A DNA stretch of 64,000 bases, from assembly GCA_001447805.1 (NCBI GenBank), contig CP013099.1, positions 3,109,181 to 3,173,180 of the forward strand. The letters are read 5' to 3'. The notes beneath the pieces were generated by a model, which worked only from the letters and a program-made list of their open reading frames with translations, was not told the origin of the DNA and ran no database searches. This stretch comes from Candidatus Tenderia electrophaga (lineage in GTDB: Bacteria > Pseudomonadota > Gammaproteobacteria > Tenderiales > Tenderiaceae). The translations under genes were made by a program, and so were the position numbers. Of this stretch, positions 17,959 to 53,078 are shown in pieces. Numbering within the stretch: the stretch's first letter is position 1; each line of letters opens with the position of its first letter.

Positions 17959-18039
17959 AGCAGATAATCCCTTCTTACAGTGTAAATTCATCAATGGTCA
18001 TCGGGGCCGGAGTCCCCAAATGCCCGCTTGCCCCTCAGC

Positions 18040-33056: not shown

Positions 33057-33085
33057 CCCGAAGAATCATCCACAGACGTTTGATC

Positions 33086-35842: not shown

Positions 35843-35862
35843 TCGTCATAGAGGACGTTGAT

Positions 35863-36735
35863 ATGCCTTTGCACCAAATCTGCGCCGGTTGGACGCTCTC
35901 ACTCATGCTGCTCGGCGGCGTGGCCACTCCCTTTGCGGCGGCGCCGCGCGATGTCAGCCATTCCACCGATGCCGCGCTGCGGCTGGACTACCTCGGCAAA
36001 CTGCTCGATTCACGCAGCGGCCAACGCCTGGCGCAACACCCTGACGGCGCCATCCGCGGTCGGATTGAGGCCATGCTGGCCCAGGCCCGGGAGGCCATCG
36101 CCGGCGGCGACAATGACACGGCCGACGCGCTCACCAAGCAGGCGCTGGAGACCCTCATGAGCGCCGTGCGCGAACTCCCCGCAGACCCCGAAGAGACTGC
36201 CCGACACAAGGCGCGTTATGAAGAACTGCGCCGCGGCCTGGAAAAATTCAATTACGCCCAGGCGGCCAATCGGGAACGCTTTGCCGCACAGGCGAAGCAG
36301 GCCTCTGAACCCGATCACAGCCAGGTTAATAAACTTCTGGCGCTGGCCGATAGGGATGCGAAGGCGGGTGATTATGAACAGGCCGTAACGCGTTTGACCG
36401 AGGCCCAGTCCATCGTTACCAGCGCCTTACGGGGCATGCTCAATCACAAACAACTGGTCATCGAGCTGGACATCGGTACGCCGGAAAAAGAATACTTTTA
36501 CGAGTTGCGCCGCTATCAAGGCTATGAAGAGCTGATCCCGGTGGCCATTGAAACCAAACGACCGAACGAAATGGCGACACAGACCATGATTAAACTGGGC
36601 GAAAAGGCAAAATGGATGTCGGAGCAGGCACGCGGCAAGGCGATGCAGGGTGATTATGCCGTCGCCATTCGTATGATAATGGATGCCACCGATGTCGTTA
36701 AACAGGCACTCAGGGTGGTCGGCATCACCATGTAA
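35863..36735 (+). CDS. Exported α-helical protein of unknown function
   Basis: 290 residues: signal peptide MPLHQICAGWTLSLMLLGGVATPFAAA, then an almost wholly helical, charged body with heptad-like and TPR-like patterns (LLALADRDAKAGDYEQAVTRLTEAQSIVTSALRGML; QARGKAMQGDYAVAIRMIMDATDVVKQALRVVGI). The paired segments with …GDY..A…A… suggest helical-hairpin repeats. No family is named. Ribosome site GAGGACG before the ATG; it follows the LVIVD gene by 20 nt and is followed by the binding-protein gene, so it likely acts in the same periplasmic system. Confidence 0.8.
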   Translation: MPLHQICAGWTLSLMLLGGVATPFAAAPRDVSHSTDAALRLDYLGKLLDSRSGQRLAQHPDGAIRGRIEAMLAQAREAIAGGDNDTADALTKQALETLMSAVRELPADPEETARHKARYEELRRGLEKFNYAQAANRERFAAQAKQASEPDHSQVNKLLALADRDAKAGDYEQAVTRLTEAQSIVTSALRGMLNHKQLVIELDIGTPEKEYFYELRRYQGYEELIPVAIETKRPNEMATQTMIKLGEKAKWMSEQARGKAMQGDYAVAIRMIMDATDVVKQALRVVGITM

Positions 36736-36812
36736 GATGGACGCGGCGCGTGCTTTGGCATGATCGCCCGGCGACCGCATCAGGCCGGATGAAAATTTTT
36801 AAGAAGGGACGC

Positions 36813-37730
36813 ATGATTCGCTTCATTGCCACTCTGCTAATCGTTTTATTGGGGATGTTTACGTCGGCCGGGGCCGCTGAAACCAGCGCCAATCTGCTCA
36901 TCCTGGTTCCCAAGATCAACGCGGCCTATGACCGTGTCTTTGCCGAGATCGTCGCTGGTGTGGCGTCTCATGACGGCGTCACGCCAACCACTATGGCTCT
37001 GACCAATTCCACCGACGAGGAGGATATTCAGCGGGCCATCGATGCCGGCGAAGCCGACGCACTGATCGCTTTGGGGCATTCCAGTTATGACATCGCGCAG
37101 CAATTCGACGACCGGCTGCCCGTCATCCACGGCGGCATGATCATGACGCCCCAAGGGCAAAGCGGCATCAGCCTGGCGGGTTCCCCGGCCGAATTCTTCT
37201 CCCATCTGGGAATCATTGCGCCCACGGTAAAACGGGTGTTCACTGTGTATGGCGATCAAAACAGTGGCTGGCTCATCGACCTGGCCCAGCGCGAGGCTGA
37301 CAAGCGCGATATCGAGCTGATTGCCCTGGCCGCCAAAGATGTGCGCGACGCGGTGTATCGCATGCGCGATGTCCTCAATCAGGTGCGCGGCCCATCCGAC
37401 GGAATTTGGTTATTGCTCGACAAAGTGATGCCGGATCAAACCGTCTTGCCCATGGTATTAGAGGCGGCTTGGAAACAGAACGTGGTGCTATTTTCCAACA
37501 ACCCGTCGCATACCAAACGCGGGGCCCTGTTCGCCCTGTACCCCGATCATCACAACATGGGTTACGCCCTGGCGGAGTTGAGTCTGCAGCGCATCCAGTC
37601 AGAGCAGCCGCTGCTGCTACCCCTGACCAACCTCAAGGTGTCGGTGAACGAGCGTACCGCGTCCCATTTGGGCTTACGCTACTCCACTGATCAACTTGAA
37701 GGTTTCGACCTCATCTATCCCTTGAGATGA
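36813..37730 (+). CDS. Periplasmic ABC-type substrate-binding protein (ABC_sub_bind family)
   Basis: 305 residues from ATG 36813, chosen for the AAGAAGGGAC ribosome site; ATG 36789 is in frame. Signal peptide MIRFIATLLIVLLGMFTSAGAA, then a two-lobe fold: NLLILVPKINAAYDRVFAEIVAGVAS, ADALIALGHSSYDIAQQ, PVIHGGMIMTPQG, KRVFTVYGDQNSGWLIDLAQREADKRDIELIAL, VVLFSNNPSHTKRGALFALYPDHHNMGYALAEL. This matches the PF04392-type family. No permease or ATPase gene is nearby; its stop overlaps the start of the histidine kinase by 4 nt (ATGA). A ligand sensor feeding the kinase is therefore more likely than transport. Confidence 0.83.
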   Translation: MIRFIATLLIVLLGMFTSAGAAETSANLLILVPKINAAYDRVFAEIVAGVASHDGVTPTTMALTNSTDEEDIQRAIDAGEADALIALGHSSYDIAQQFDDRLPVIHGGMIMTPQGQSGISLAGSPAEFFSHLGIIAPTVKRVFTVYGDQNSGWLIDLAQREADKRDIELIALAAKDVRDAVYRMRDVLNQVRGPSDGIWLLLDKVMPDQTVLPMVLEAAWKQNVVLFSNNPSHTKRGALFALYPDHHNMGYALAELSLQRIQSEQPLLLPLTNLKVSVNERTASHLGLRYSTDQLEGFDLIYPLR

Positions 37731-39283
37731 GGACACTCAAGAGTATGAACAGGCAATCGGCACAATCCAAGACGAAGAGCTTTCGCGGTCAGCTGACCAC
37801 GATCTTTACCTTGGGCATCCTGGCGTTGGGCCTGGCCGGTGCCGTCTCATCCGCCTGGGTGACCAAGGTCCATATCGAGGGCCAGCTGTACGAGAACGGC
37901 CTGCAGGTGACCGAATCCCTGGCCAAACAGTCGGTGTTGGCATTGATCTACGACAGCCCGGAAAACGCCGAAGAGGCCACCGTCGCCGCGATGGGCTTTC
38001 CCGCTATCGAGCAGGTCGCCATCCTCGACATCAACGGCGGGGTGTTGCTGGTTAAGGGTGATCCGTCGGTGGACTACGACCTGTCGGCACTCAGCGAAGG
38101 AGTGACCTTGGTGAACGAAACTTTGGATTACTGGTTGTTCGGGGCGCCGGTCTTCATCCAACAAGAACAAGCGGCGGATCAATCGCCCTTGCTGCTCGAC
38201 ACCGAACAACAGCAGGAGCTGGTCGGCCGCGTGCTGGTCAGGAAGAGCAAGGAAAAGATCGGCCAGGTCTTTACTGCGGCCATCATTAACAATCTGGCCA
38301 TCGGCCTGCTGTTCGCGTTGGTGCTGCTCGCCATACTCCATCTCAGCTTTAATCGCCTGGTGACGCCCTTGGACAAGCTCGCCGCCGTCATGGGCCGCGC
38401 CAAGGAAGGCGATGTGGTCAAGGCCTACGCCAGCCTGGAGGGTCCGCGGGAGGTCACTGAAATCGCCCAGGCCTACAACACCATGATTGAGGCGCTGGCC
38501 CGGCACCAGGCGCAGTTGAAGCGCCACAACGAACTGCTGGAATACGAAGTCGAGGAGCGTACCCGCGATCTGGTCTACGCCCGTGACATGGCGATCCGCG
38601 CCAACCGCAACAAATCCCACTTCCTTTCCAACGTCAGTCACGAATTGCGTACACCGCTGCAGTCCATCCTCGGTTACAGCGACCTGATTCTGGAAACCCT
38701 GCCAGCCGAGCTGGCCGAGATTCACCGAGATATCGACACCATTGTACTAAATGCGGAAAGTTTGCTGCACATGATCAATTCAATACTGGATATGTCGAAA
38801 ATCGAGGCCGGGCGCATCGAACTCACTAAACAAGAGACTAATCTCGACGAACTGGTCGATGGCGTGATTGAGACTATCAAGCCTCTCATCACGCCCAACC
38901 AGAACACGCTCAAGCTGGAGCGACGGCTGATCAAGACGGTGGTCTACGTGGACGGCGACAAGCTGCGCCAAGTATTACTCAACCTGCTGGGCAACGCCGC
39001 CAAATTCACCGATAACGGCACCATACTTTTCAGCATGACGCAGAACGACAAGCTGCTCGAGTTTAAAGTGGAGGACAATGGCATCGGCATGAACCAAGAC
39101 CAGCTCGACCACATCTTTGAGCCGTTTTACCAGATTGACGGAGGCCATACGCGGCGCTATCAGGGTACCGGCCTGGGACTGGCCATTACCCATCAATTTT
39201 GTCATTTAATGAACGGGAACATCAAGGTACGCAGTGAGCCAAACCGGGGAACTCGATTTTATGTGCAGATTCCCTACGATTAA
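37727..39283 (+). CDS. Membrane sensor histidine kinase
   Basis: 518 residues: transmembrane helix 1 (about 24–46), a periplasmic sensing domain of about 140 residues (EGQLYENGLQVTESLAKQSVLAL…, CHASE-like), helix 2 (about 186–206), a HAMP-type linker and coiled coil, then the HisKA domain with phospho-acceptor H305 in FLSNVSHELRTPLQSILGYSDL, and the HATPase with LRQVLLNLLGNAAKFTDNG, VEDNGIGMNQDQLDHIFEPFYQIDGG and GTGLGLAITHQF. All catalytic boxes look intact. Start and binding-protein stop overlap (ATGA). The cognate regulator is most likely the next gene. The stimulus probably comes through the binding protein; this is inferred from context. Confidence 0.9.
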   Translation: MRTLKSMNRQSAQSKTKSFRGQLTTIFTLGILALGLAGAVSSAWVTKVHIEGQLYENGLQVTESLAKQSVLALIYDSPENAEEATVAAMGFPAIEQVAILDINGGVLLVKGDPSVDYDLSALSEGVTLVNETLDYWLFGAPVFIQQEQAADQSPLLLDTEQQQELVGRVLVRKSKEKIGQVFTAAIINNLAIGLLFALVLLAILHLSFNRLVTPLDKLAAVMGRAKEGDVVKAYASLEGPREVTEIAQAYNTMIEALARHQAQLKRHNELLEYEVEERTRDLVYARDMAIRANRNKSHFLSNVSHELRTPLQSILGYSDLILETLPAELAEIHRDIDTIVLNAESLLHMINSILDMSKIEAGRIELTKQETNLDELVDGVIETIKPLITPNQNTLKLERRLIKTVVYVDGDKLRQVLLNLLGNAAKFTDNGTILFSMTQNDKLLEFKVEDNGIGMNQDQLDHIFEPFYQIDGGHTRRYQGTGLGLAITHQFCHLMNGNIKVRSEPNRGTRFYVQIPYD

Positions 39284-39306
39284 AGGTTCTAAAACGGAAG
39301 CCGATC

Positions 39307-39321
39307 TTGTAGTCACTACAA
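39307..39321. promoter_or_regulatory. Dyad between the kinase and regulator genes
   Basis: TTGTAG–TCA–CTACAA, a perfect 6-bp dyad with a 3-bp centre, in the 118-bp gap before the regulator gene. It could be an operator or a weak RNA hairpin. The regulator has its own ribosome site AAGGGAG. Confidence 0.35.
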
Positions 39322-39401
39322 ATTCCTTCGATTCGGCGGAAACGCACCATGGTGGTCCGGCAGGATAATAACTCTAAAGGAAGAGAAAGGGAGATTCGAA
39401 G

Positions 39402-41888
39402 ATGAATCAACATATACTGATCGTAACGCTCGATCGGGAGCAGGGAAGCGCAATCAAACAGGTATTGAAGGGCGCCGGATTCAGCAATCTGGCGATCGCG
39501 CATAGCAGTCAGGCGGCCATAAACCTGCTTACTGATCATCCTGTTGACGCCATCGTCAGCGCCGTCGATCTCGAACCCGTGGATGGCTGGCGCTTCGCCC
39601 GGATCATACGCTCCGGCGCCCTTGCGGTGAAACTCCACGTCCCCATCGTCATGATCTCCGACGGTTTCAGCGAACGCATCGCCCAAGCGACCTCCAAGGC
39701 GTTCCAGGTGAATCGTTTTATTCCCTTTGAGAAATTTCACACCCTGCCGTCTATTCTCAGTGACTTGTTGCGCCAGGAAAAGCCCGGCGTGCCAAAATCA
39801 AGCCTACTGGTGGTGGAGGATTACCTCGACACGGTGGAGTTGGTTAAGCGTGTGCTCGGCAGCCGTTTCGATATCGACGTCGCGACTACCGGCAAGCAGG
39901 GTTTGCGGGCCTGGACGGAGAAACGACACGACCTGGTGCTACTCGATGTGATGCTGCCCGAGATGGCCGGTAACGATGTGTTGAAGGAAATCCTCAAGGA
40001 ATCACCGCGCCAATCGGTAGTGATGATGACCGCACAGTCCACCCCCGAGCGCGCCGCCGAACTGATCATCGACGGGGCCGTGGATTACATCTCCAAGCCG
40101 TTTCGCGCCGACCAGCTTCGACAAGTATGTGAAATCGCCGTGCAGCGCGAAGACTTCATCGTCAGCAACGAGGAGTTTTCCTCCCACGAGGAGGCGCTTT
40201 ACCAGGAAAAGGAGCTGGCGCAAATTACCCTGCAGTCCATCGCCGACGGCGTTATCCGCACCAATGCCAAGGGTGAAATCGAATTCATGAATCCGGTGGC
40301 GGAACACGTCACCGGCTGGAGTTTTGAGCACGCCCGCAACAAACCATTTCGCGACATATTGCGCTGCTTCAACGACAGCAATCAGGCCGCCACCAATCCC
40401 GTTGAGATCACCTTAAATAACCAGTCGACGCTGTATGGCACACAGGATGTCACCTTCATGGATCGCGATGGCGCCAAGTTGAAGCTCGACCATGTCACCT
40501 CGCCGATCAAGAACCGACATGAGGAAATCATCGGCACGGTTATGGTGTTTCGAGACATCACCGAGGAACATGAATTAGCCCGCCAACTCGACTACCAGGC
40601 GAAGCACGACGCGCTAACCGGACTCACTAACCGCGCCGCCTTCGAGGACTATCTGGAAACGGTGATCGAGAAGTTGCCCCAGAGCGATGAAGTGCATGCG
40701 CTTTGTTATATCGACCTCGACCAATTCAAAGTGGTGAACGATACCTGCGGTCATATCGCCGGCGACCAACTGTTGCAACGTATTTCATCGATCATTCTAA
40801 ACAAAATCCGCAAAGACAGCGATGTGCTGGCACGCTTCGGCGGCGATGAGTTTGTGCTCATGCTGTCGGACTGCCCTATCGAGCGCGCCACGCGCGTTGC
40901 TGAAGATATCTGCCAAGAGATCCAGGAATACCGATTCGTTTATGACTACAAGACCTTTGCCATAGGCGCCAGTATCGGGGTTGTGTCACTGACCTCGGAA
41001 ATCGCCAATACCAACGACGCCTTGCGCATGGCCGATAACGCCTGTTACGTCGCCAAAGAAAAAGGCCGCAACCGTGTCCATTTGTACCACATCGATGACC
41101 AGGAGCTGGTGCGCCGTAGCGGCGAGATGCACGTGGTATCGAAAATCAACCACGCTCTGGAGAACGAAGGGTTTTCACTGTTCTTTCAGGAGATAATGGC
41201 GCTCAAAGGCGATAGAGAAAAGCACAAGCACATAGAAATCCTGATCAGGATGAAAGATGAGGGAAATGACTGGATTACTCCCGGGTTTTTTCTGCCCGCC
41301 GCTGAACGCTACAGCGTGGCGCCCAAAATCGATAAGTGGGTGATAAGCTCGGTCATGAAGTGGCTGTCGGAAAACCGGCGCTGCTTGGACGCGCTTGAAA
41401 TGTGTTCAATAAACTTATCAGGACTGTCGTTCTGTAATGAAGGGTTTTCTGAATTCGTTAAAAATGAAATTCAGGCGCGTAACATACCGGCTGAGAAGAT
41501 CTGTTTCGAGATCACCGAAACCGCCGCTATTCGCAACATGCATGATGCCTCCGACTTTATAAACACCATGCGTGGGTTCGGTTGCAGCTTCGCACTCGAT
41601 GATTTCGGCAGCGGCATGTCGTCCTACGCCTATCTCAAGGCATTGCCTGTCGACTATCTCAAGGTCGACGGCATGTTCGTCAAGGATATTATGATCGACC
41701 CCATCGACAAGGCCATGGTCAAATCGATTAACGAGATCGGGCACGTATTCGGCCTTAAGACCATCGCCGAATTCGTCGAGACCGACGACATCATTGATGA
41801 GCTGTGCATGCTGGGTGTGGATTACGCTCAAGGGTATGCGATCAGCAAGCCTGCGCCCATAAGCGCTCTGGCATCCAGTTGCACTTGA
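39402..41888 (+). CDS. Response regulator with REC–REC–PAS–GGDEF–EAL domains
   Basis: 828 residues, a multi-domain c-di-GMP enzyme. REC1 (1–125) is degenerate: Ala54 stands where the phospho-Asp belongs and the late Lys is replaced (NRFIPFEKF). REC2 (132–245) is intact with D182 in LVLLDVMLPEMAG and the SKPF Lys. A PAS domain (about 268–390) follows. GGDEF is intact at 480–484 (ARFGGDEF), with the product-inhibition RxxD changed to K471–x2–D474. In the EAL domain the signature reads EIL at 612–614, but E612, N671, E703, D733–D734, K754, E790 and Q810 are present, so phosphodiesterase activity is plausible. Follows the histidine kinase by 118 nt. Confidence 0.92.
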   Translation: MNQHILIVTLDREQGSAIKQVLKGAGFSNLAIAHSSQAAINLLTDHPVDAIVSAVDLEPVDGWRFARIIRSGALAVKLHVPIVMISDGFSERIAQATSKAFQVNRFIPFEKFHTLPSILSDLLRQEKPGVPKSSLLVVEDYLDTVELVKRVLGSRFDIDVATTGKQGLRAWTEKRHDLVLLDVMLPEMAGNDVLKEILKESPRQSVVMMTAQSTPERAAELIIDGAVDYISKPFRADQLRQVCEIAVQREDFIVSNEEFSSHEEALYQEKELAQITLQSIADGVIRTNAKGEIEFMNPVAEHVTGWSFEHARNKPFRDILRCFNDSNQAATNPVEITLNNQSTLYGTQDVTFMDRDGAKLKLDHVTSPIKNRHEEIIGTVMVFRDITEEHELARQLDYQAKHDALTGLTNRAAFEDYLETVIEKLPQSDEVHALCYIDLDQFKVVNDTCGHIAGDQLLQRISSIILNKIRKDSDVLARFGGDEFVLMLSDCPIERATRVAEDICQEIQEYRFVYDYKTFAIGASIGVVSLTSEIANTNDALRMADNACYVAKEKGRNRVHLYHIDDQELVRRSGEMHVVSKINHALENEGFSLFFQEIMALKGDREKHKHIEILIRMKDEGNDWITPGFFLPAAERYSVAPKIDKWVISSVMKWLSENRRCLDALEMCSINLSGLSFCNEGFSEFVKNEIQARNIPAEKICFEITETAAIRNMHDASDFINTMRGFGCSFALDDFGSGMSSYAYLKALPVDYLKVDGMFVKDIMIDPIDKAMVKSINEIGHVFGLKTIAEFVETDDIIDELCMLGVDYAQGYAISKPAPISALASSCT

Positions 41889-41896
41889 TCGGTCTG

Positions 41897-43798
41897 CTAC
41901 GAGGTGGCGTCGACATTGTCGGACGCGCGTCTTGAAGTCGTGGTCCCACGCCGCTTACGCCGTCGATCAAGGGCGCTAACTCTAACACCCATCGGCGGGG
42001 GCTCCTCGGGATCAATATAGACATCGAGCACTGTCGGGACGCTGGTGGATAATACCCGCCCAAAATCAAACTGATCAAGTTCCTGTCGATTGCGAATAGT
42101 GAACCCTTCCGCACCCATGGCGCGCGCCACGGCGGCGAAATCGACTCTCGGTAATTGATAACCGATAGGCTCGGCGCCAGTTAGCCGCTGCCCATGCTTA
42201 ACCATGCCAAAAGCTTCGTCATTTAGTACAACAAACACAACGGACAGACGCTCAGCAACTGCCACTGTAATCTCCTGTCCGCTCATCAACATGGAACCGT
42301 CCCCTGTTATCGCCACCACAGGGCCATTAGTAGTTGCAGAGGCGACACCAATAGCATTACCAATCGCCCAAGTCATAGCGCCGAAAGCGATACCAATTCG
42401 GAAACTACCGCTACTTCTTAAATGGAGATAATGGATGGCCCAGCTCCATGCATTACCGGTGTCAATGACAACTCGCGCATTTTGCGGCAATGATTTGCCA
42501 AGCTGTTGCATCAGCAGCTGTGGCTTTACGGCAGCTTGATCCCAAGGTAACGACAAGGTGTCCGGTGTAAGCTTGTTTTCGTGATAACGTTTCATTGGGA
42601 AACTTAACCCACCGTGTGTAGCAAAAGTCAGTGGAGGGCTCTTTTCACGACATACTTCGGCGCTTATCGCCACCTTAATATCATCAGTTAGTTTTTTAAA
42701 AATCATCGCCACATCGCCATAGACATGCAGCCGCGCCATCGGTGACTGAGAAAAATTGTCCTCCACGGAGTCGATATGTACCAGCTTGTAGTTTAGCAAT
42801 GCTAATTTGTCCCAAGTGGATGTTGACAACTCGTCCAACCTACTGCCGACCGCAACCAATACGTCCATTTCCGGATCCAACAGAGTTTGGCGTGCGCTGT
42901 CATGACCGGCGAAACCGAAAACACCACGGTATAACGGGTGATAGGCGTTCATCCAACTTTTTCCGGAAGGCGTTGTCACGACCGCTGAATTCACGATTTC
43001 CGCAAACTCGGCAATAGGATTTATTGCTCCCCCGCCGCAACCACCGCCGGCCAAAACTACGATTTTTTTTGCCTTCTCGACGATCTCTACTAGTTTTTCA
43101 TAACTTGTATCATCGATAACGGCTCTGGGTTGAATCAGCCGTTCAATTTCATAGCTCGGCTGGTGATGTGCACATTCACATTCAAGAATATCCTTGGGAA
43201 TACTTATATGGACCGGGCCCTGTGGCGCCTGAAAGGCTTTCGATATCGCTTTTATCAGTTTCCCCTCGAGCTGGGCCGGATGAGAGACGAGGGTATTGAA
43301 TCGAGTCAAATGGGAAAACATGCCGACAATATCCACACCCGCATCGGAGGAGTCTTGTAAGGGCATGCGGCCAAAATCGCGCAACGCCGTTTGTGGCGTA
43401 ATTACCAAAATTGGATTTCGTTCCACGTAGGCAGAGGCGACGCCGGTAGCGAGATTTGTGGCGCCGGGACCCGTGGTTGAACAGCATACTCCCAGACTGC
43501 CTGTTTCTCTGGCATAGCCGGCGGCCATAAAGGCTGCACCGGACTCATGCCTGGTGATAACGAGCTTGATACCGTCGGGATGATAGCGGGAATGACGAGC
43601 AAGTGCATCGAATAGGGGCTCAATGGCGGCCCCAGGCACACCGAATATCCGCCTTATACCAAGCGTATAAAGATAATTGATAATCAGATCTGCGTAAGTG
43701 TGCATTGCTGTGACATCGCCACCACTAATATTCGATTGATCTGTAGGGTTATCAGCTACCATAGCCGCGCCTGCAGCCAGACCAAAGCGCGTAGCCAT
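41897..43798 (-). CDS. Acetolactate-synthase-like TPP enzyme (copy 1)
   Basis: 633 residues from ATG 43798; a GTG at 43807 and an ATG at 43705 (MHTYADL…) are alternatives. The three TPP-enzyme domains are present: N-terminal with IFGVPGAAIEPLFDALARH and the catalytic Glu in ITRHESGAAFMAAGYARE; middle domain GVFGFAGHDSARQTLLDPEMDVLVAVGSRLDE; C-terminal TPP site GDGSMLMSGQEITVAVAERLSVVFVVLND. No regulatory subunit (ilvN-like) is adjacent, so it is not an ordinary acetolactate synthase. Decarboxylation of a 2-oxo acid followed by acyl transfer is inferred from the family. It is paralogous to the gene at 50813–52675. Last gene of the minus cluster, 167 nt after the dehydrogenase. Confidence 0.85.
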   Translation of the reverse strand: MATRFGLAAGAAMVADNPTDQSNISGGDVTAMHTYADLIINYLYTLGIRRIFGVPGAAIEPLFDALARHSRYHPDGIKLVITRHESGAAFMAAGYARETGSLGVCCSTTGPGATNLATGVASAYVERNPILVITPQTALRDFGRMPLQDSSDAGVDIVGMFSHLTRFNTLVSHPAQLEGKLIKAISKAFQAPQGPVHISIPKDILECECAHHQPSYEIERLIQPRAVIDDTSYEKLVEIVEKAKKIVVLAGGGCGGGAINPIAEFAEIVNSAVVTTPSGKSWMNAYHPLYRGVFGFAGHDSARQTLLDPEMDVLVAVGSRLDELSTSTWDKLALLNYKLVHIDSVEDNFSQSPMARLHVYGDVAMIFKKLTDDIKVAISAEVCREKSPPLTFATHGGLSFPMKRYHENKLTPDTLSLPWDQAAVKPQLLMQQLGKSLPQNARVVIDTGNAWSWAIHYLHLRSSGSFRIGIAFGAMTWAIGNAIGVASATTNGPVVAITGDGSMLMSGQEITVAVAERLSVVFVVLNDEAFGMVKHGQRLTGAEPIGYQLPRVDFAAVARAMGAEGFTIRNRQELDQFDFGRVLSTSVPTVLDVYIDPEEPPPMGVRVSALDRRRKRRGTTTSRRASDNVDATS

Positions 43799-43965
43799 CG
43801 TTATCACTTCACAATAGCAAAAGAGGTTTTATTAAGCCAATATGGATTGATGAGTAAATGGGTGGGCGGTTGCCTGAACACATACAAAAAACATATAAAA
43901 AGCGGCTCCTAGGCGACGAACCATCGATGCAATGCATCCTACGAACAACGAATTCGACCGTAAAG

Positions 43966-44685
43966 CTAAATTGAATCCACTCCACCATCAACATGCCACA
44001 CTGCACCTGTTACATACTTGGCTTCAAGCTGGGCAAGGATGACATGAGCAACTTCTTCAGGCGTTCCGAAACGCCCTAACGGTATTGTTGCCTTTTGATG
44101 CGCACGAACAGCTTCAATTTGTTCCTCTGATAACCCTAGCTTGGATATAAGGGGAGTATCGATAGCCCCTGGAGAAACACAGTTCATACGTATCCCTTGA
44201 GGCGCGAGCTCTACGGCTAGACTTCTGGAAAATCCGTCCATTGCACCTTTTGTAGCAGCATAAAGTGATGCATTCGGCAGCCCGTTATTAGTGACAGCCG
44301 AAGAAATATTGGTTATTGCACCAGATCGTTGAGCGAGTGCGGGCACGAGGAACTGGATTAACATAAGCGGGCCACGTATATTTGTACTGAAAAAAACGTC
44401 ATAGTCCTCGTCCGTATGTGCGGTAATAGGCATAAATTTCGCTACCGCTGCATTATTGACTAGCGCATTTAATCCAGTGCTAGCAAAGGCATCAGCCAAA
44501 CGCAGTAGGTCATCTGTCTTCTGCATGTCAGCTACGATACCAGTAACACCTAAGGCTTCTTCTGCTACAGCAACAGCCTCACGATTTCGTCCGCTTATCG
44601 TGACATCATATCCGCGTGCCTTTGCTAATGCCGCGGTTGCATACCCAATTCCTGAATTCCCACCGGTGATCAATATATTTTGCAT
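43966..44685 (-). CDS. Short-chain dehydrogenase/reductase
   Basis: 239 residues, classical SDR: nucleotide loop TGGNSGIGYATA, NNAAVAKF, Ser in NISSAVTN, catalytic Tyr–x3–Lys in YAATKGAMDGF, and PGAIDTP. The basic residue after strand 2 (ISGRNRE) suggests NADPH. Its likely role is reduction of a keto group made by the neighbouring TPP and citrate-synthase-like enzymes, which is inference only. It lies 16 nt after the citrate-synthase-like gene B and shares its low GC content. Confidence 0.9.
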   Translation of the reverse strand: MQNILITGGNSGIGYATAALAKARGYDVTISGRNREAVAVAEEALGVTGIVADMQKTDDLLRLADAFASTGLNALVNNAAVAKFMPITAHTDEDYDVFFSTNIRGPLMLIQFLVPALAQRSGAITNISSAVTNNGLPNASLYAATKGAMDGFSRSLAVELAPQGIRMNCVSPGAIDTPLISKLGLSEEQIEAVRAHQKATIPLGRFGTPEEVAHVILAQLEAKYVTGAVWHVDGGVDSI

Positions 44686-44701: not shown

Positions 44702-45547
44702 CTAAGCTGTTTGTTCGGGTACTGATCTATGTTCCTTGCCTTCGTAATTTATATCATCGCACTTTAAAGGAAGGAATGATCCGGGCGTTCTTGCATTAGC
44801 ATCTAGATAGCATGCAGTTACGCCACTCGCCACTAATGTCGAACAACTTATATACACTTGTTCTGCAGTAAATCCGATATCTGATAGGAATGCGGATACA
44901 TACCCGTTTATATTCATACTTTCGCTAAAATGATCATTTAGATACTCCTCAACCTTGTACGCTAGTGCGAGATGTTCACCTATTTCAAAACCCAACTCCT
45001 CCGTAACCTTCTCCATCGCACCGACTCGCTCATCGCCCTTGGCAATAGGTCGGGCGTATCCGGTAATCACCGGCGTTGCACCGACCCGCTGACTTGCTGC
45101 TTTTACGAGTTCTTCAACCGACACTCCTGACTTATATTCTTTGAGCGCGTTCTGGATGAAGTTTACACCGTCAATCAAAGTATGCGATCCATAGGCCCGT
45201 GACTCCATTGCCATATTTCCACTGCTGGTTGCGGCCACAGCAGATACCTTCATTTCAGCACCCAAGGCACCAATGTGATTACACCAAATCCTAGGGTCGG
45301 GCCAACTCAGGCATATGTGAAACGCTTCCATCCAATCAGCAAGGCGCCTATCAGGCAATTTCCCGAGCGAGTTAAGCATCATTACCTGCATATACGAAAC
45401 ATTCCCGACCAGATCATCCATCATAGAATAGCCATGATTTAACACGGCTTTACCAATCTTCCACCCTCCTTTCCGGCTGAAAATCTTGTTTCGGCGCTGA
45501 TCCCAAAAAGATGTGTCGTTAATCGCTTTCAATGATGTAGTCCTCAT
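44702..45547 (-). CDS. Small citrate-synthase-like protein B
   Basis: 281 residues of the short citrate-synthase/citryl-CoA-lyase-like type. Helical N-terminus GYSMMDDLVGNVSYMQVMMLNSLGKLPDRRLADW, the SWPDPRIWCNHIGALGAE block, and AYGSHTLIDGVNF where the first catalytic His would lie. The second His motif (normally GHxxY…DPR) reads GYARPIAKGDERV at 163–175 with Arg in place of His, and the usual Asp region reads MNINGYVSAFL. True citrate synthase activity is therefore doubtful. Its ATG lies within the 3' end of gene A (29-nt overlap) in another frame. GC content is much lower than that of gene A (20/60 in 44881–44940). Confidence 0.75.
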   Translation of the reverse strand: MRTTSLKAINDTSFWDQRRNKIFSRKGGWKIGKAVLNHGYSMMDDLVGNVSYMQVMMLNSLGKLPDRRLADWMEAFHICLSWPDPRIWCNHIGALGAEMKVSAVAATSSGNMAMESRAYGSHTLIDGVNFIQNALKEYKSGVSVEELVKAASQRVGATPVITGYARPIAKGDERVGAMEKVTEELGFEIGEHLALAYKVEEYLNDHFSESMNINGYVSAFLSDIGFTAEQVYISCSTLVASGVTACYLDANARTPGSFLPLKCDDINYEGKEHRSVPEQTA

Positions 45548-46346
45548 CGGAAATAAAAGGCATCGCCGTCAGTGGCTTGTTGGCCAACTCGGCGCCGTGG
45601 GCTAAAAGCCCGGGGGCGCTGATGATTTGATATACACCCGCGGCGGCACGGGGAGGAAACCCCAGATCAGTCAGTGCGGCCGCCACCACACCTGTTGCCA
45701 ACCAGCCCATTCCGTGCTCTGCCAAACCAGCAGCAAACTGCTGCCCCCAGTGCAAAGCAGCGCTGGCGGCGGGCATCTGCGCCAGGTGGTCGGCAATGCT
45801 TGCACTGATCAGATCTATGCCGTTGTAATAACTACCGAAGCCAGGGGCGATATGCCAATCGCCTTCGTCCGGACGATCAGGATTGGCCATTAATAGCTGC
45901 AATACATCTTCAACCGGCTTACGCTGGTTCTTACGCAGAAATCGCATCGCCTCTTCGAGAGTCCCCGCCGCATTATGTGTGCCGCTCAAAGTCGTCAGAG
46001 CAATGGGCAATATCAAGGCGGGATCGGTCTTGCCGACGCCTGCGTTCATGGCGGCTCGGGTAGCCGGATGGCGCGGGCCGGGATTGATAAAAGCGACCAT
46101 CAACGCGTCCAGCAGCTGAGCCTCTGCGGTCGTCGGGAGTTCGCCACGGAATAGTAAATACAGCATATCAGCGAAGCTGCGCTTCTGAACAAGCTCTAGG
46201 AGATCATACCCATGGCAGCGACACTGTGCCGCAATATAGGGGTTTTCGGCCGATGGCAGTTCTTGCCATATCCGCGTAGCGGTGCGCTCGGCGTAAATAT
46301 CATCGCGCCGCTGCACCTGCGCTGAAGGCTTATCTGATTTAATCAT
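45519..46346 (-). CDS. Small citrate-synthase-like protein A
   Basis: 275 residues. The fold is marked by GYDLLELVQKRSFADMLYLLFRGELPTTAEAQLLDALMVAF, RHPATRAAMNAGVGKTDP and the C-terminal ATGVVAAALTDLGFPPRAAAGVYQIISAPGLLAHGAEL. His124 (SGTHNAAGTLEEAM) fits the first catalytic His, but the second His motif is GFGSYYNGID (169–178) without His, and the usual late Arg is Ala (ISAPG). It starts inside the stop codon of TonB receptor 1 (ATGA) and overlaps gene B by 29 nt. It may pair with B as a heteromer; substrate unknown. GC is high (38/60 in 45661–45720), unlike gene B. Confidence 0.75.
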   Translation of the reverse strand: MIKSDKPSAQVQRRDDIYAERTATRIWQELPSAENPYIAAQCRCHGYDLLELVQKRSFADMLYLLFRGELPTTAEAQLLDALMVAFINPGPRHPATRAAMNAGVGKTDPALILPIALTTLSGTHNAAGTLEEAMRFLRKNQRKPVEDVLQLLMANPDRPDEGDWHIAPGFGSYYNGIDLISASIADHLAQMPAASAALHWGQQFAAGLAEHGMGWLATGVVAAALTDLGFPPRAAAGVYQIISAPGLLAHGAELANKPLTAMPFISDEDYIIESD

Positions 46347-48469
46347 TCTCTCAATCGATGCTCCGCTTCTAGGAAAACACTCCGCCCGGGCAACGGGTAA
46401 TCGCCGGGAATGATGCCATTGCTTGGCTCGCGATTATCCGCATCAAAAGCATTTTTTATACTCACACCGAACGCCCAGTAGTTACTTAAAGGCTGATAAC
46501 GTACGGCCAGATCAACCGTCGAGTTATCCGCGATAGGAGGACGTGGATCACCCTTGGCCCGACTTCTATCCATTACCCAATTGGCCTGCCCATACAATAC
46601 CCATGGAAGAGACGGCTGCCAAGCCGCTGCCAAAAACAATTGCCGTCTCGGCGCGTTGGGGATCACTGTATCGTCTTGTGCATCTTCAGAAAACTGGAGC
46701 GCAAAATTACTCTTCAATTGCAATGCGTCGGTTGCATACCATTTCGCCTCCATCTCCAGGCCATGGCCATTCTGCGCATGAGTGTTCTGCGCTGTCCCGT
46801 TGACGAATTCAATCAGCTCGTCGGCATGGTATGTGAAAAGCGTCAGGATCGCGATCCGCCGGGGACCCGGCCGATAATCGAAGACCAACTCAATCATATC
46901 GATGGTCTCGGGCTCCAAGTCAGGATTTCCTGCCACCACTGGGTTATTTTCGAAATAAAGTTCGGTCAGGCTGGGCGCGCGAAACGCTCGACCGTAAAGC
47001 AACTTGGTTGTCAGGAAATAATCGCGTTTCCAAACCAAGGCAAGACGAGGATTGATGGTTTCACCGAAGTCGGAATAATTGTCATACCGGACACCCGCGG
47101 TCATCTCCCAGTCAGCGGCGAATCGCCATTCATCCTGTAATGAAAGATAACGCACGGTTCGGGAACGCTGTTTCACAAATATGTACGGCGTACCGGTGAC
47201 ATCGGTCAATGTGCCGTCGATTGAGCTTTCGCTGCCGTTTATAACGCCCGGCCCGAAATTTTTCGTTTCAGTGGCTGTAAACGAATCTTGATCCATGCCG
47301 ATAGCGCTTCGAAGACGATGGCCATGCCATCCCTCATACAGCCCAGCGACCTCCAGCCGGATTTCAGTTTGTTCGCCGCCCGGATTGCCCAGCACGCCGT
47401 CGGTAAAACGAACGGTACCGACAGGTACACAGCCAGGATAAATGCACAAATTTCCATCTGCCGCGACCTGCACCTCGGTCCCTGGAGGGAGTATCCGATA
47501 GCGAACCTCTTGATCGAAAACGCGGTAGGACACGCTCGAATTCAATCGCCAATCCTCAAACGATTCGTCATCTTTATAGCCTATCGCTAACGTGTAGTGA
47601 TCATTTTCCTGTTCTCCGGCCGGATCCAGTGCTTGGAACGCACCCGGGCCGACTCCACCATCCTGGAGATTCCAGGCGTTAAGCCAAAAAGACCATTTCT
47701 TTTTCTCGAGGTTAATTGAGCTGTTCAATAGTTTATAACGGCTATCTAATGGGCCCGGCGCGAGACTGGCATTCGTGCCAAAACGCGCGTCCAGATCAGT
47801 TTGAAAATCGCTCTCGATAATCCTGCTTCGATCTCCGTCGCTGCTGATATATTCCAGGCTCAGACCGATATCCCAGCCGCCTAGCTCGCCGCCGTACTGA
47901 ATCCACCCATCTCTGGCTCCGAAGGAGCCAAAACGAACACCGACTATATGGCCGTCGATATCCAGCCTTTCCTTGGTGATAATATTAATCACGCCGGCGA
48001 ATGCATCCGCTCCGTATACTGCCGAGCCCGGTCCGCGGATTACTTCAATCAAGGCGATATTTTCCACCGGCAACCGGAACAAGGGGGGTCTGGAACCAGT
48101 GATGAGCTGGTTAAATGAAATACCATTCACCAGCAACAATACCTGTGAATTCCAATCGGTGTGGATTCCGCGAATGGAATAGATGCTGCTGTTGCGAGCG
48201 AATGAAAGCGAAACATGCAGACCGGGGACGGTTTCCAGCACCTCTGCCAGGGTGCGGGCGCCGCTGGCCTTGATCTCATCGGCGCGGATCACGGTTGCCA
48301 CGGAGGGCGCCAGATGAATAGCTTTATAGGTGCCGGTGGAGATGCTGACGATCTCTTCCGAGGGATAGTAGAGGTTCAGCTCACTCTCATGGGTGGCGAA
48401 GGTCAATGCATAGGAAGGCGAACAGAACATCCCCAGCAGCGTAGCCAATGCTGGAAAACGGCGTCGCAT
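46343..48469 (-). CDS. TonB-dependent outer-membrane receptor 1
   Basis: 708 residues with a signal peptide (MRRRFPALATLLGMFCSPSYA). TonB-box-like EEIVSIST, then the plug: IHLAPSVATVIRADEIKASGARTLAEVLETVPGLHVS, YSIRGIHTDWNSQVLLLVNG, IEVIRGPGSAVYGADAFAGVINIITK. The barrel ends NPDLEPETIDMIELVFDYRPGP … and the last residues are HRLRE without the usual terminal aromatic. Plug and barrel are strongly similar to receptor 2 throughout, so the two arose by tandem duplication. Ligand unknown. The stop overlaps the start of citrate-synthase-like gene A. Confidence 0.93.
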   Translation of the reverse strand: MRRRFPALATLLGMFCSPSYALTFATHESELNLYYPSEEIVSISTGTYKAIHLAPSVATVIRADEIKASGARTLAEVLETVPGLHVSLSFARNSSIYSIRGIHTDWNSQVLLLVNGISFNQLITGSRPPLFRLPVENIALIEVIRGPGSAVYGADAFAGVINIITKERLDIDGHIVGVRFGSFGARDGWIQYGGELGGWDIGLSLEYISSDGDRSRIIESDFQTDLDARFGTNASLAPGPLDSRYKLLNSSINLEKKKWSFWLNAWNLQDGGVGPGAFQALDPAGEQENDHYTLAIGYKDDESFEDWRLNSSVSYRVFDQEVRYRILPPGTEVQVAADGNLCIYPGCVPVGTVRFTDGVLGNPGGEQTEIRLEVAGLYEGWHGHRLRSAIGMDQDSFTATETKNFGPGVINGSESSIDGTLTDVTGTPYIFVKQRSRTVRYLSLQDEWRFAADWEMTAGVRYDNYSDFGETINPRLALVWKRDYFLTTKLLYGRAFRAPSLTELYFENNPVVAGNPDLEPETIDMIELVFDYRPGPRRIAILTLFTYHADELIEFVNGTAQNTHAQNGHGLEMEAKWYATDALQLKSNFALQFSEDAQDDTVIPNAPRRQLFLAAAWQPSLPWVLYGQANWVMDRSRAKGDPRPPIADNSTVDLAVRYQPLSNYWAFGVSIKNAFDADNREPSNGIIPGDYPLPGRSVFLEAEHRLRE

Positions 48470-48580: not shown

Positions 48581-50713
48581 CTAACGTATATGAAATACCA
48601 CTTCCAAAAAAACACTGCGCCCTTCAAGGGGATAATCACCGGGAATGGTCCCGTCGCTGGGCTCACGGGCATCCTCATCGAATACATTCTTGGCGCTGAG
48701 GCCAAACTGCCAGTGGCGGTTATCCGGTTGATGTCTGAGAAACAGATCCACCGTAGTATAGTCGTCAATTGCAGGGCGAGGGTCTGTACTCGCACGCGTG
48801 CGGTCGGCTACCCAATTTGCCTGGCCATACAGTGACCATCTTTCGATCATGCGCCAATCGGCTGCGACAAACAGTTGCCGCCGCGGGGCATTGGGAACCA
48901 CGGCGCCGCTATTGGCGTCCTCGGAGTACTGCAGGGCGAAATTTCCTTTTATCTGCAATTCATTGCTGGCATGCCATTCGGCTTCGAATTCAAGCCCGTG
49001 GCCTTTCTGGTTGTGGCTGTTCTGTGCTGTGCCATTCACAAATTCAATCAAGTCGTCCGCCTCGTACGCATATAAACCGAATATGGTTTCCACATCGAAA
49101 GACGGGCGATAGTCGACGACCAACTCAATCATATCGATGGTCTCGGGTTCTAAATCGGGATTACCAATTGTTACCGGATTATTTTCAAAATATAGTTCCG
49201 TTAAGCTCGGTGCTCGAAAAGCGCGCCCGTAAAGAAGCTTAGTTGTAAGATTATAGTCAGTCGCCCATACCAAAGCCAAACGGGGATTGGTGGTTTGACC
49301 AAAATCAGAGTAATCATCGTGGCGAATTCCTGCGGTTAGTTCCCAGTCACGTCCGACCCGCCATTCATCTTGCAACGACAAGTAGCGCACAGTACGCGAC
49401 GCGTTTTGAACAAAAACATAAGGAGTATCGGTAACGTCTGATAGCCCCCCATCGATCGGGCTCACGGAACCATCAATAACACCTGGACCGAAGTTCTTTG
49501 TCTCTACAGGCTCGAACTCATCATGGTCGGCGCCAACCGCAAGTCGTAAGCGATGGTCCTGCCAACCTTCAAAAATTCCGGCCACTTCGAAACGCGTTTC
49601 GGTTTGTTGGCCACCCGGGTTACCCCAGACCCCGTCTGTAAAAGTCACTAGACATGGAGGTGAACTGCAACTGGGCGGTGTGAACAAATTTCCGTCTGCA
49701 CCAATCGGCACAACAGCTCCCGGCGGTAGAATTCGGTACGTAGATTGTTGATCAAGAACACGATATGAAAGGCGCGTCTCCAGTAGCCAGCTTTCAGTCA
49801 GATCGTCGTCCGTATAGTCCAATACCAGTGTGTACTGGTCGTTCTCTTGTTCGCCCGCCGGGTCGATCGCCTGAGCCACACCAGGTCCGACACCAGCATC
49901 GTTTAGAACCCAACTATTGAACCAAATCGACCATTTTTCCCGTGTTAACGTGACGGACGTATTCAATAAGTCGTATCGTGTTTCTAATGGTCCAGGCGCG
50001 AGACTAACGTCGGTACCGAATTGAGTGTCTAGCGTGGTCTGGAAATCCGAGGTGACGATACGGTCGTGGTCACCGTCGCTGGTGCTATACTCGAAGCTTC
50101 CGGCAACTGCCCAACCATTGAATTCGCCGCCATACTGCAACCAAGTCTCTTGCGTATCAAAGGAGCCTGTGCGTGCACCTGCGACCAGTCCATCGATATC
50201 GGCGCTGTCTTTGGAAATTATATTGATGACGCCTGCAAATGCATCGGCACCAAACACCGCTGAACCCGGACCCCGAATTACCTCTACACGGGCAATATTT
50301 TCTACCGGCAGACGAAACAATGGTGGTCGTGAGCCTGTGATGAGATCATTAAAAGGCAAGCCGTTGACAAGTAGAAGCACTTGCGGATTCCAATCTGTAT
50401 GGATACCGCGAATGGAAAAAATACTGCTATTGCGAATCGACGACTTAGACACATGTACGCCCGGAACCGTTTCCAGGACCTCATCTAGAGTACGCGCCCC
50501 CATCGCATTGATTTCTTTCGCAGTAATAACGCTGGCCACCGAAGGTGCCAAGTGGATAGGTTTGCTGGTCCCGGTCGCGATGCTAATCATTTCTTCGTCT
50601 TCATAAAGCAGCATAAGGTCTTCTTCGACCGCGGCTAGCTGCTGCGCGTGTACAGAAGGCACCAACAACAACGAAGCCACGGTAGCAATTGCAGTAACTT
50701 TGATATTAGGCAT
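48581..50713 (-). CDS. TonB-dependent outer-membrane receptor 2
   Basis: 710 residues: signal peptide MPNIKVTAIATVASLLLVPSVHA, TonB-box-like EEMISIAT, plug IHLAPSVASVITAKEINAMGARTLDEVLETVPGVHVS and VEVIRGPGSAVFGADAFAGVINIISK, barrel ending VFLEVVFHIR. The plug is nearly identical to receptor 1, while signal peptides and parts of the barrel (for example the Cys-containing TPPSCSSPPCLVTF loop) differ, suggesting ligand divergence. Ribosome site GAGGACGTGA. GC is slightly lower than in receptor 1. It follows the TPP enzyme copy 2 by 99 nt; a TAGTGG/CCACTA dyad (50732–50750) lies in that gap. Confidence 0.93.
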   Translation of the reverse strand: MPNIKVTAIATVASLLLVPSVHAQQLAAVEEDLMLLYEDEEMISIATGTSKPIHLAPSVASVITAKEINAMGARTLDEVLETVPGVHVSKSSIRNSSIFSIRGIHTDWNPQVLLLVNGLPFNDLITGSRPPLFRLPVENIARVEVIRGPGSAVFGADAFAGVINIISKDSADIDGLVAGARTGSFDTQETWLQYGGEFNGWAVAGSFEYSTSDGDHDRIVTSDFQTTLDTQFGTDVSLAPGPLETRYDLLNTSVTLTREKWSIWFNSWVLNDAGVGPGVAQAIDPAGEQENDQYTLVLDYTDDDLTESWLLETRLSYRVLDQQSTYRILPPGAVVPIGADGNLFTPPSCSSPPCLVTFTDGVWGNPGGQQTETRFEVAGIFEGWQDHRLRLAVGADHDEFEPVETKNFGPGVIDGSVSPIDGGLSDVTDTPYVFVQNASRTVRYLSLQDEWRVGRDWELTAGIRHDDYSDFGQTTNPRLALVWATDYNLTTKLLYGRAFRAPSLTELYFENNPVTIGNPDLEPETIDMIELVVDYRPSFDVETIFGLYAYEADDLIEFVNGTAQNSHNQKGHGLEFEAEWHASNELQIKGNFALQYSEDANSGAVVPNAPRRQLFVAADWRMIERWSLYGQANWVADRTRASTDPRPAIDDYTTVDLFLRHQPDNRHWQFGLSAKNVFDEDAREPSDGTIPGDYPLEGRSVFLEVVFHIR

Positions 50714-50812: not shown

Positions 50813-52675
50813 TCACGCTCTATTCTGCTGCCTTTTTAGTGTGTTAACCCGGGCTCCCATGGGTGGTAAGGCTTCCGGATCTATATGTATATCCAGCAAT
50901 GCCGGGCGCCCGGTTTGGCATAATTTCTTGATATCGATGCGCTGCAAATCGTGTAGGGTGCGCACTGTATAGCCCTGCGCGCCCACGCTTCTAGCCATCA
51001 TGGCGAAATCAACCGGGGGTAAGTCGTAGCCGATCGCCTCGGCGCCGCTTAGGCGCTGGCCATGTTTGATCATACCTAGTGCCTGGTCGTTAAATATGAC
51101 GAAAATCACCGCTAGCTGATGTGTGACGGCGACACTTAACTCCTGGCCGCTCATCAGATAACTGCCGTCACCGGTGATACAGACCACGGGATGTTTGGCA
51201 TTGCCCAATGCCGTGCCAACTGCTGCGCCAACGGCCCATCCCATAGCGCCAAAGGTGAAGCTGCTGCGCTGTACACCGACGTTATCCAGAAACAGGTAAT
51301 GGGTAGCCCAAGAAAACGCATTACCGGTATCGATGACAAAACGAGTATCTCTGGGAAAGCGTTGAGCTAGCTCACTCATTAGGCGTTGCGGCTTGAGCGG
51401 TGAGCTTGTATCAGCAACGGTTTCCGGTTCATAGACTTCTACCTGGCCCGGTAAATAGTCGGTGCTTGTCTGCTTGAATTCCTGGCGCGCCATCGGGCAA
51501 ATGGCATTTTTACGGTCGGTAGTATTTAAGATGTGATCTTTATGTAGGCTGGCGAAGATAGTCCTGACATCCCCTGACAAGTGCAGGCACGCCATAGGCG
51601 TACGAGCAAAATCTTCTGGCGAAGCCGAAACATGCACGAGTTTACTACTCATGAGTTGTTTGTCCCAACCACTGGTGGACAATTCCCCCATAGCTGTGCC
51701 CACTGCCAAAATCAGATCGACATCTTCGGTGGCAAGCGTTTCATATGCGCTGGGGTGACCAGCAAAACCGAATACACCGCGATAAAGCGGGTGATAGCCA
51801 TTGACCCAGCCTTTGCCTGATGGAGTGGTAACAATTGGCGTATTGGTCAATTCTGCATAGGATGTAATGATGTCTATGGCATGGCGACATCCTCCACCTA
51901 AAAACAGCACCTGTTTTTTTGACTGCCCTATTGCGCTGACCAAAGCCTGATAGGCTTCGTCATCCATGGAGCGCGGTTGGCGAAACAAATGAGCCACTTG
52001 GTAACCACAGGTATCGCCTTTGACCGGTGCATTTAGGATATCCATCGGAATACTGAGATGGACAGGTCCACGTGGCCGGCGAAAGGCATTGAGTAGGGCG
52101 GTATATAGCTTTCCTTCAAGCTGATCGGGGTGAGACACCAGGGCGTTGTATTGGGTGCAATGTTCAAACATGCCGACAATATCGATGGCATCGCTGGACG
52201 ACTCTTGGAACCCGCCTTTACCGAAAAACGGCAGCGCCGTCTGAGGTGTGATGACCAACATGGGAGTACGGTCGGCGTAGGCCGAAGCGACCCCGGTAAT
52301 CAGATTGGTCGCACCGGGCCCGGTGGTGGCACAACAAACGCCGAGTCTACCTGTTTCACGTGCATAGCCGTCGGCCATGAAGGCGGCCCCGGCTTCGTGA
52401 CGGGCGATGATCGGTTTGATATGGGGTTTGATGTCTCTTTGACGCATGGGCACCAGACTGTTAACCGCCAACTGTCGTGTGGCATCCTCCGCCGGCCGGC
52501 GCAAATGCCGCGCCAAGGCGTTATACAGCGGTTCGATACCGCCGCCGGGGATGCCGAAAATGTATTCAACGTCGATCTGAACCAGATAGCTGACGATCAA
52601 ATCGGCGTACGTGAACGGCTGCGCCGCCACGGACGCAGGCGCAGGCGTGTCTATTACCTGTGTAACAGAATCCAT
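50813..52675 (-). CDS. Acetolactate-synthase-like TPP enzyme (copy 2)
   Basis: 620 residues from ATG 52675, which has GCGAGAGATTCC before it; the GTG at 52702 is less likely. Catalytic Glu94 in IIARHEAGAAFMADGYARE; IFGIPGGGIEPLYNALARH; TPP site GDGSYLMSGQELSVAVTHQLAVIFVIFND; substrate region MIKHGQRLSGAEAIGYDLPPVDFA. Compared with copy 1 it has an extra ~19 residues before the catalytic Glu (around RRPAEDATRQLAVNSLVPM). No small regulatory subunit nearby. First gene of the minus-strand cluster; the promoter presumably lies in 52.68–52.9 kb. Confidence 0.85.
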   Translation of the reverse strand: MDSVTQVIDTPAPASVAAQPFTYADLIVSYLVQIDVEYIFGIPGGGIEPLYNALARHLRRPAEDATRQLAVNSLVPMRQRDIKPHIKPIIARHEAGAAFMADGYARETGRLGVCCATTGPGATNLITGVASAYADRTPMLVITPQTALPFFGKGGFQESSSDAIDIVGMFEHCTQYNALVSHPDQLEGKLYTALLNAFRRPRGPVHLSIPMDILNAPVKGDTCGYQVAHLFRQPRSMDDEAYQALVSAIGQSKKQVLFLGGGCRHAIDIITSYAELTNTPIVTTPSGKGWVNGYHPLYRGVFGFAGHPSAYETLATEDVDLILAVGTAMGELSTSGWDKQLMSSKLVHVSASPEDFARTPMACLHLSGDVRTIFASLHKDHILNTTDRKNAICPMARQEFKQTSTDYLPGQVEVYEPETVADTSSPLKPQRLMSELAQRFPRDTRFVIDTGNAFSWATHYLFLDNVGVQRSSFTFGAMGWAVGAAVGTALGNAKHPVVCITGDGSYLMSGQELSVAVTHQLAVIFVIFNDQALGMIKHGQRLSGAEAIGYDLPPVDFAMMARSVGAQGYTVRTLHDLQRIDIKKLCQTGRPALLDIHIDPEALPPMGARVNTLKRQQNRA

Positions 52676-53078
52676 TGGAATCTCTCGCTTTTTACAATCC
52701 ACCCTGGACTCATATCGGGCGATTCACATTAAGGTTTAATAATTTCATAACGTTTCATCAGCGGTGACTAATAGTGTCAACCAGATCGGGTAGCTGGATG
52801 CGCTTGGGTGGTTGGATGAAACGCTTGGGGAATTTAATGACCGGAGGGAAAAGTACGGTCGGTGGCGATGACCTGAGGATTTAGGCCTGCCCGCTGCGGC
52901 TGGAAACATCGTCTTGATCAAATTCACCGGTCCATCCTTGTTTCGGTGTGCTACTAATCAATTTGCCGGTGCCGGCGCGGCGGCACGTCTTTCATTTATA
53001 CCAAATATAGCCCTGTAGTGCTTGTTACAATTTTTGTAATCATTCTCAAACGAAGCCCAAACGGTGGCTCTACAAAAG
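52676..53078. promoter_or_regulatory. Upstream region of the minus-strand cluster with repeats
   Basis: About 400 bp with no gene I accept. It holds an inverted repeat CGTTTCATC (52751–52759) / GATGAAACG (52815–52823), a direct repeat TGGATG(AAA)CGCTTGGG (52795–52808 and 52813–52829), and a minus-strand TTGACA (52780–52775) whose −10 would fall in the left arm of the inverted repeat but is poor. This looks like a regulated promoter; no start site can be fixed. Confidence 0.4.

Follow-up and report, generated by a model that had tools for sequence, protein, structure and literature searches.

A near-obligate pair of citrate-synthase-like genes in Candidatus Tenderia electrophaga and the conserved gene set around it

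The 64,000-nucleotide stretch of the Candidatus Tenderia electrophaga genome that was analysed here (hereafter the window) carries two overlapping genes, A and B, whose products are predicted to share the fold of citryl-CoA lyase and citrate synthase, have lost the catalytic triad of these enzymes and are encoded as a near-obligate pair within a conserved neighbourhood. The reading that we place first, and on which we are nearly evenly divided, is that A and B form an obligate heteromer with a remodelled site, which would act with a neighbouring ThDP-dependent enzyme on a small molecule that is taken up and sensed via c-di-GMP.

Fold and active-site residues of the two proteins

Gene A (45519..46346, minus strand) encodes a protein of 275 aa and gene B (44702..45547, minus strand) one of 281 aa. 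Both open reading frames were found where the original prediction had placed them, the end of A overlapping the start of B by 29 nt (45519..45547, minus strand); the sequence also offers an alternative start for B, a TTG at codon 6 with GAGG 9 nt upstream, which would give an overlap of 14 nt and not 29. The junction is compact, with at most 81 nt between the stop codon of A and the codon of the invariant Gly27 of B, in 71 of 81 loci, the median distance over the 81 being 52 nt.

The Pfam scan matched A to PF00285 with 31.1 bits against a gathering score of 27, but over only 41 residues (41-81), and gave no match for B, PF00285 included. Both proteins match the citryl-CoA-lyase NCBIfam models (PRK06224) along most of their length, B with an E-value of 8e-16, and both stay below the curated cut-offs (at best 88 of 212 bits for A and 58 of 245 for B). 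By sequence, both proteins come closest among solved structures to the citryl-CoA lyase 6hxp; its profile matches A at E 3e-28 and B at E 3e-16. AlphaFold2 monomers, built on 78 sequences for A and 81 for B, reached a mean pLDDT of 90.6 and 89.0; the predicted fold of A aligns with 6hxp at Z 22.7 (237 aligned, rmsd 3.5) and that of B with 6hxn at Z 21.9 and with 6hxp at Z 21.7. These models, which match citryl-CoA lyase at Z of about 22 and with which the profile matches agree, support the earlier claim that both proteins keep the overall citrate synthase fold. A tree of 36 rows puts A and B in separate, strongly supported clades, each divided by a matching deep split.

Alignment shows SAHGGA, GYGHR..DPR and NVDG in 6hxp, and we take SAHGGA, GYGHR and NVDG to be the sites of the catalytic His, His and Asp. 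Residues of A and B were placed on this scheme from alignments of sequences and profiles; structural alignment yielded ranges only. The 78 rows for A and 81 for B represent the nearer clade, and left out of the A alignment were locus L069, where A is partial, and L068 and L098, where A is a short end. The ordinary citrate synthase of the window (16651-17994, minus strand) has the HGGAN and GHRIY..DPR motifs, and the translations of the pair likewise read as predicted, with a His at 124 and GFGSYYNGID at 169-178 in A and GYARPIAKGDERV at 163-175 in B.

The second catalytic His is present in none of the 78 A and none of the 81 B rows, which upholds the central claim of the original prediction; that claim was too narrow in limiting the loss to this residue, since the whole triad is lost and the third-site Asp is also absent from every row of both alignments. 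As had been noted, the two proteins differ in what replaces the second His: it is Arg in 81/81 rows of B, and Ser, Ala, Gln, Thr, Arg, Lys, Asn or Val in A, where the third position holds Thr, Pro, Ser, Val or Ala. His124 of A, which had been considered retained, does occupy the first-His position, but this position is variable (H 44, Y 19, F 11, R 2 and V 2 of 78) and its role as a conserved catalytic residue was rejected. The corresponding region of B contains no conserved His, with H at position 118 in a single row of 81.

At the sites of the lost triad, B carries the invariant or nearly invariant motifs PDxR[IV]WCN, YG and GYxRPxxxGDER. Residues P83, D84, R86, W88, C89, N90, Y119, G163, R166, P167, D172, R174, H192, N212, D223 and D265 are found in all 81 rows, G120 and E173 in 80 and G171 in 78. 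The distant loci L050-L053 depart from this pattern at several columns (C89 is Asn; the region of A94) and retain R166, D172, E173 and R174. In A, the residues common to all 78 rows are E29, N35, G46, Y47, P71, G90, R92, P114, L228, Q240 and P245, and the PGFG loop is retained in 70-76 of them. Because B carries invariant residues, a new active site appears more likely, as judged from these alignments, than simple loss of function, which is in keeping with the earlier suggestion of a different reaction at altered and perhaps shared active sites. Sequence decay can be ruled out, as both proteins are full-length and strongly conserved over the 78 and 81 rows. The original observation is thus real and stronger than first claimed.

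Pairing of A and B and the genes around them

Of 56 relatives, one and the same set of 15 carries both A and B; a match of 37 residues in G023 was left out of this count. We then surveyed 369 genomes of the class, counting as strong the matches above 200 bits for A and above 150 bits for B and sorting them by hand; A matches in G363, G199, G276 and G256 were dropped at this step as weak or belonging to other families, as were B matches in G062 and G074 (short fragments), G372, G101, G363, G166 and G276. A strong match to A or B remained in 42 genomes, of which 41 have both genes and 39 have them adjacent. A scan of a second collection gave 176 relatives of B, of which the best 80 loci were analysed; a match to A lies directly before B in all 80, A being interrupted by the contig end in three (L068, L069 and L098). 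Three genomes of the survey are exceptions: G188 has B, and its match to the A profile is 41 residues inside a 463-aa frame, as an ordinary citrate synthase gives; G206 has A and B on separate contigs; and G145 has residues 1-55 of B beside A and residues 51-265 about 0.5 Mb away (L169 and L170). In this last genome B appears to be broken by a rearrangement (or a misassembly) and A stays near the ThDP gene.

The pair is therefore near-obligate, and its co-occurrence and adjacency across many families are beyond chance. The homologues almost always form adjacent pairs, and the finding that would have refuted the original prediction, either gene routinely lacking its partner, was not made. Coevolution measured by distance correlation was uninformative on this point: the A-B value (r 0.615) is not above that of B with the ThDP enzyme (0.662; 0.751 for the ThDP enzyme with the substrate-binding protein) and so adds little.

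In the window, the pair takes the fourth (A) and fifth (B) places in a run of genes on the minus strand. The run begins with a ThDP-dependent carboligase-like enzyme (50813..52702) with Pfam TPP domains, followed by two TonB-dependent receptors (48581..50713 and 46343..48469, both PF00593/PF07715), the first of which has the colicin I receptor as its nearest PDB entry and the second of which overlaps the start of A by 4 nt at its end. After B come, at 16 nt, an SDR oxidoreductase (43966..44685, PF13561) and a second ThDP-dependent enzyme (41897..43807, PF02776/PF00205/PF02775). Converging on this run from the plus strand (36750-41888) are genes for a periplasmic substrate-binding protein (36750..37730, PF04392), a HAMP sensor histidine kinase (37727..39283, PF02518/PF00512/PF00672) and a response regulator with the domain order REC-REC-PAS-GGDEF-EAL in the domain scan (39402..41888). 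Ahead of the binding-protein gene on the plus strand are two more genes (33080-36735), for products of 920 and 290 aa, which are also present in several related loci; the larger product matches the choice-of-anchor B model below its cut-off. The two ThDP paralogues, 52% identical over their matched part, share one A/B pair, as do the two receptor paralogues. This ThDP, TonB, sensor and c-di-GMP gene set, which the original prediction overlooked, says more on the role of A and B than does the pair alone.

The ThDP enzymes carry the catalytic Glu and the GDG..N cofactor motif of the ThDP carboligase/decarboxylase superfamily, and these are intact among the homologues (Glu 56/56, GDG 56/56, N of GDG..N 55/56). 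The two enzymes score 301 and 300 of the 538 bits set as equivalog cut-off for acetolactate synthase (TIGR00118) and are below the cut-off of all NCBIfam models among the matches listed.

The same neighbourhood recurs among the best 80 loci of the second collection, 45 of which are untruncated (8.5 kb or more of sequence to either side). A ThDP enzyme is present in 61 of the 80 (38 of the 45 untruncated) and a TonB receptor above 100 bits in 75 (43 of the 45). Among the untruncated loci, a kinase core is found in 34, EAL in 32, GGDEF/EAL proteins in 34 and a PF04392-type binding protein in 18, so that no ThDP enzyme was detected in 7, no GGDEF/EAL protein in 11 and no PF04392-type protein in 27; a second type of binding protein (PF12974 in the one member scanned) occurs in 10 of the best 80. 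As background, calculated for the window's genome only (3.76 Mb), there are 21 EAL matches, about one per nine windows of this size, and just two PF04392 matches, one of them the gene at 36750..37730. In the distant locus L053, HAMP, HisKA, HATPase, REC, Hpt, GGDEF and EAL are joined in a single protein of 1501 aa beside the binding protein.

An SDR gene lies near B in 19 of the best 80 loci. Gene fusions were also found, a ThDP::A frame of 886 aa in L050 and a B::SDR frame of 530 aa in L113; together with the synteny, these fusions place the pair, the ThDP enzyme and the SDR in a common pathway. A sulfotransferase follows B in 8 of the best 80 loci, one of them in a genome of the window's own genus, and an APS kinase is present in 4. 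In L121, L123, L126 and L127 the APS kinase is directly after B, with the sulfotransferase adjoining on the other strand. In L132, B is followed by a gene for a GAF-HD protein, and a further recurrent family is found in L063, L077, L099 and L114, with a class I/II aminotransferase domain in the one member scanned (L099).

By record titles, the gene set occurs in Gammaproteobacteria, Desulfuromonadales, Desulfobulbaceae, Gallionellaceae and others. Since it includes named genera (Cellvibrio, Colwellia, Teredinibacter and Malonomonas), the product and its link to c-di-GMP are open to direct test. An anti-phage role was rejected, PADLOC giving no match for A, B, the ThDP enzymes or the SDR, and so was a mobile origin, with no plasmid match and no relative in viral contigs.

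A proposed role and its alternatives

In the reading that we prefer, A and B would be the partner subunits of an obligate heteromer with the fold of citryl-CoA lyase. Its new site, for which the three conserved motifs of B are the most likely centre, would be completed by A. This site may act on a compound that the ThDP carboligase-like enzyme encoded nearby makes or consumes, and the SDR, joined in some lineages by the sulfotransferase, would finish the molecule. As TonB receptors lie in the same locus as the binding protein, kinase and GGDEF-EAL genes, a small molecule is probably released as the product and then taken up and sensed: it would be recaptured through the TonB receptors and the binding protein, both seeing it as their ligand, and a relay from the binding protein to the histidine kinase and on to the GGDEF-EAL protein would set c-di-GMP accordingly. 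The receptor and sensor genes themselves suggest uptake of the compound, or of some form of it, with c-di-GMP as the readout. The direction of synthesis is suggested by the sulfotransferase and APS kinase, which in their minority of loci also suggest a product carrying a hydroxyl group, and the two fusions, with these genes in the few loci that have them, point to biosynthesis. Against this reading, the SDR and the sulfotransferase are minority genes, and no exporter was identified; the three exceptions to pairing and the untruncated loci with no detected ThDP enzyme, GGDEF/EAL protein or PF04392-type binding protein also count against it. Should A and B indeed be a heteromeric enzyme, catalysis on the citrate synthase fold would here proceed without the textbook His/His/Asp triad, other invariant residues standing in its place.

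A broader version is possible, and we regard it with some doubt. It takes the locus for a so far undescribed chemical-signalling system of proteobacteria, in which the ThDP carboligase, together with a citrate-synthase-fold enzyme of two subunits and a new catalytic site, would make a small molecule (sulfated in some lineages); dedicated TonB receptors would recapture it, and the binding protein and kinase would relay it to c-di-GMP. No literature on the A/B gene set was found by title or start of abstract in open-licence PubMed Central text, and the parts of PMC5371394 and PMC12118335 available to the search contained no match for the terms sought.

TonB receptors and pairs of binding protein and kinase typically serve uptake and the sensing of substrates, and the locus might instead be a catabolic island, in which an environmental compound, imported by the receptors and sensed by the binding protein and kinase, is degraded by the ThDP enzyme and an A/B lyase. 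Citryl-CoA lyase is itself a lyase, 2-hydroxyacyl-CoA lyases are among the relatives of the ThDP enzyme, and an ABC-transporter ATPase family is present in 7 of the best 80 loci (L087, L128 and five others), about 8.6 kb from B. We nevertheless consider this explanation unlikely: among the families listed (those in at least 4 loci, 6 of them annotated) there was no transporter common to most loci, the sulfotransferase and APS kinase that follow B are in keeping with tailoring rather than breakdown, and GGDEF/EAL proteins accompany the pair in most of the untruncated loci.

The absence of the second His and the Asp from both proteins would also fit a non-catalytic, ligand-binding pair, pseudoenzymes that bind a CoA ester or a carboxylic acid and regulate or scaffold the ThDP enzyme. 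The ThDP::A fusion agrees with such an attachment, as does the PGFG loop kept by A, a loop that is next to the adenine of CoA in citrate synthase. This is less probable again, as D84, R86, N90, R166, D172, R174 and N212 of B are held in 81/81 rows at active-site positions, more than a scaffold would appear to need. That A and B are independent short citrate synthase paralogues, merely co-transcribed and each a homo-oligomer, as citryl-CoA lyase and citrate synthase are, is the least probable of all; the separate clades and the lone B of G188 speak for it, and the near-obligate adjacency over a deep split, with its compact junction, speaks against it.

Comparison with known systems

The ThDP enzyme beside the pair has BbmA, CsmA and acetolactate synthase as its nearest relatives of solved structure, the first copy having BbmA (8x3x) as its best PDB match at 298 bits; the products of BbmA and CsmA were not found in the literature search. 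The sensory genes recall the autoinducer-2 system LuxP/LuxQ, in which a periplasmic binding protein likewise stands beside a HAMP histidine kinase, and the kinase core of the window resembles the LuxQ model, far below its cut-off. Unlike LuxP/LuxQ, the present locus, recognised by gene linkage, has a PF04392 binding protein, a GGDEF-EAL output and a TonB receptor.

Among solved structures, the citryl-CoA lyase of Hydrogenobacter thermophilus (6hxp) is the best relative of A and one of the best for B. It is alike in fold and length but retains SAHGGA, GYGHR..DPR and NVDG, whereas no row of A or B has the second or the third catalytic residue, and the two are different chains. The citryl-CoA lyase module of ATP-citrate lyase has the same fold (Z 19-22) and keeps both GHR and NVDG, which are missing from the free-standing A and B. 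The short citrate-synthase-like GHPxH..DPR proteins of L166-L168 have, like B, a Pro after the site of the lost His and a D.R pair, and neither the first His nor the Asp; unlike A and B, they keep the second His and are encoded by single genes in other neighbourhoods.
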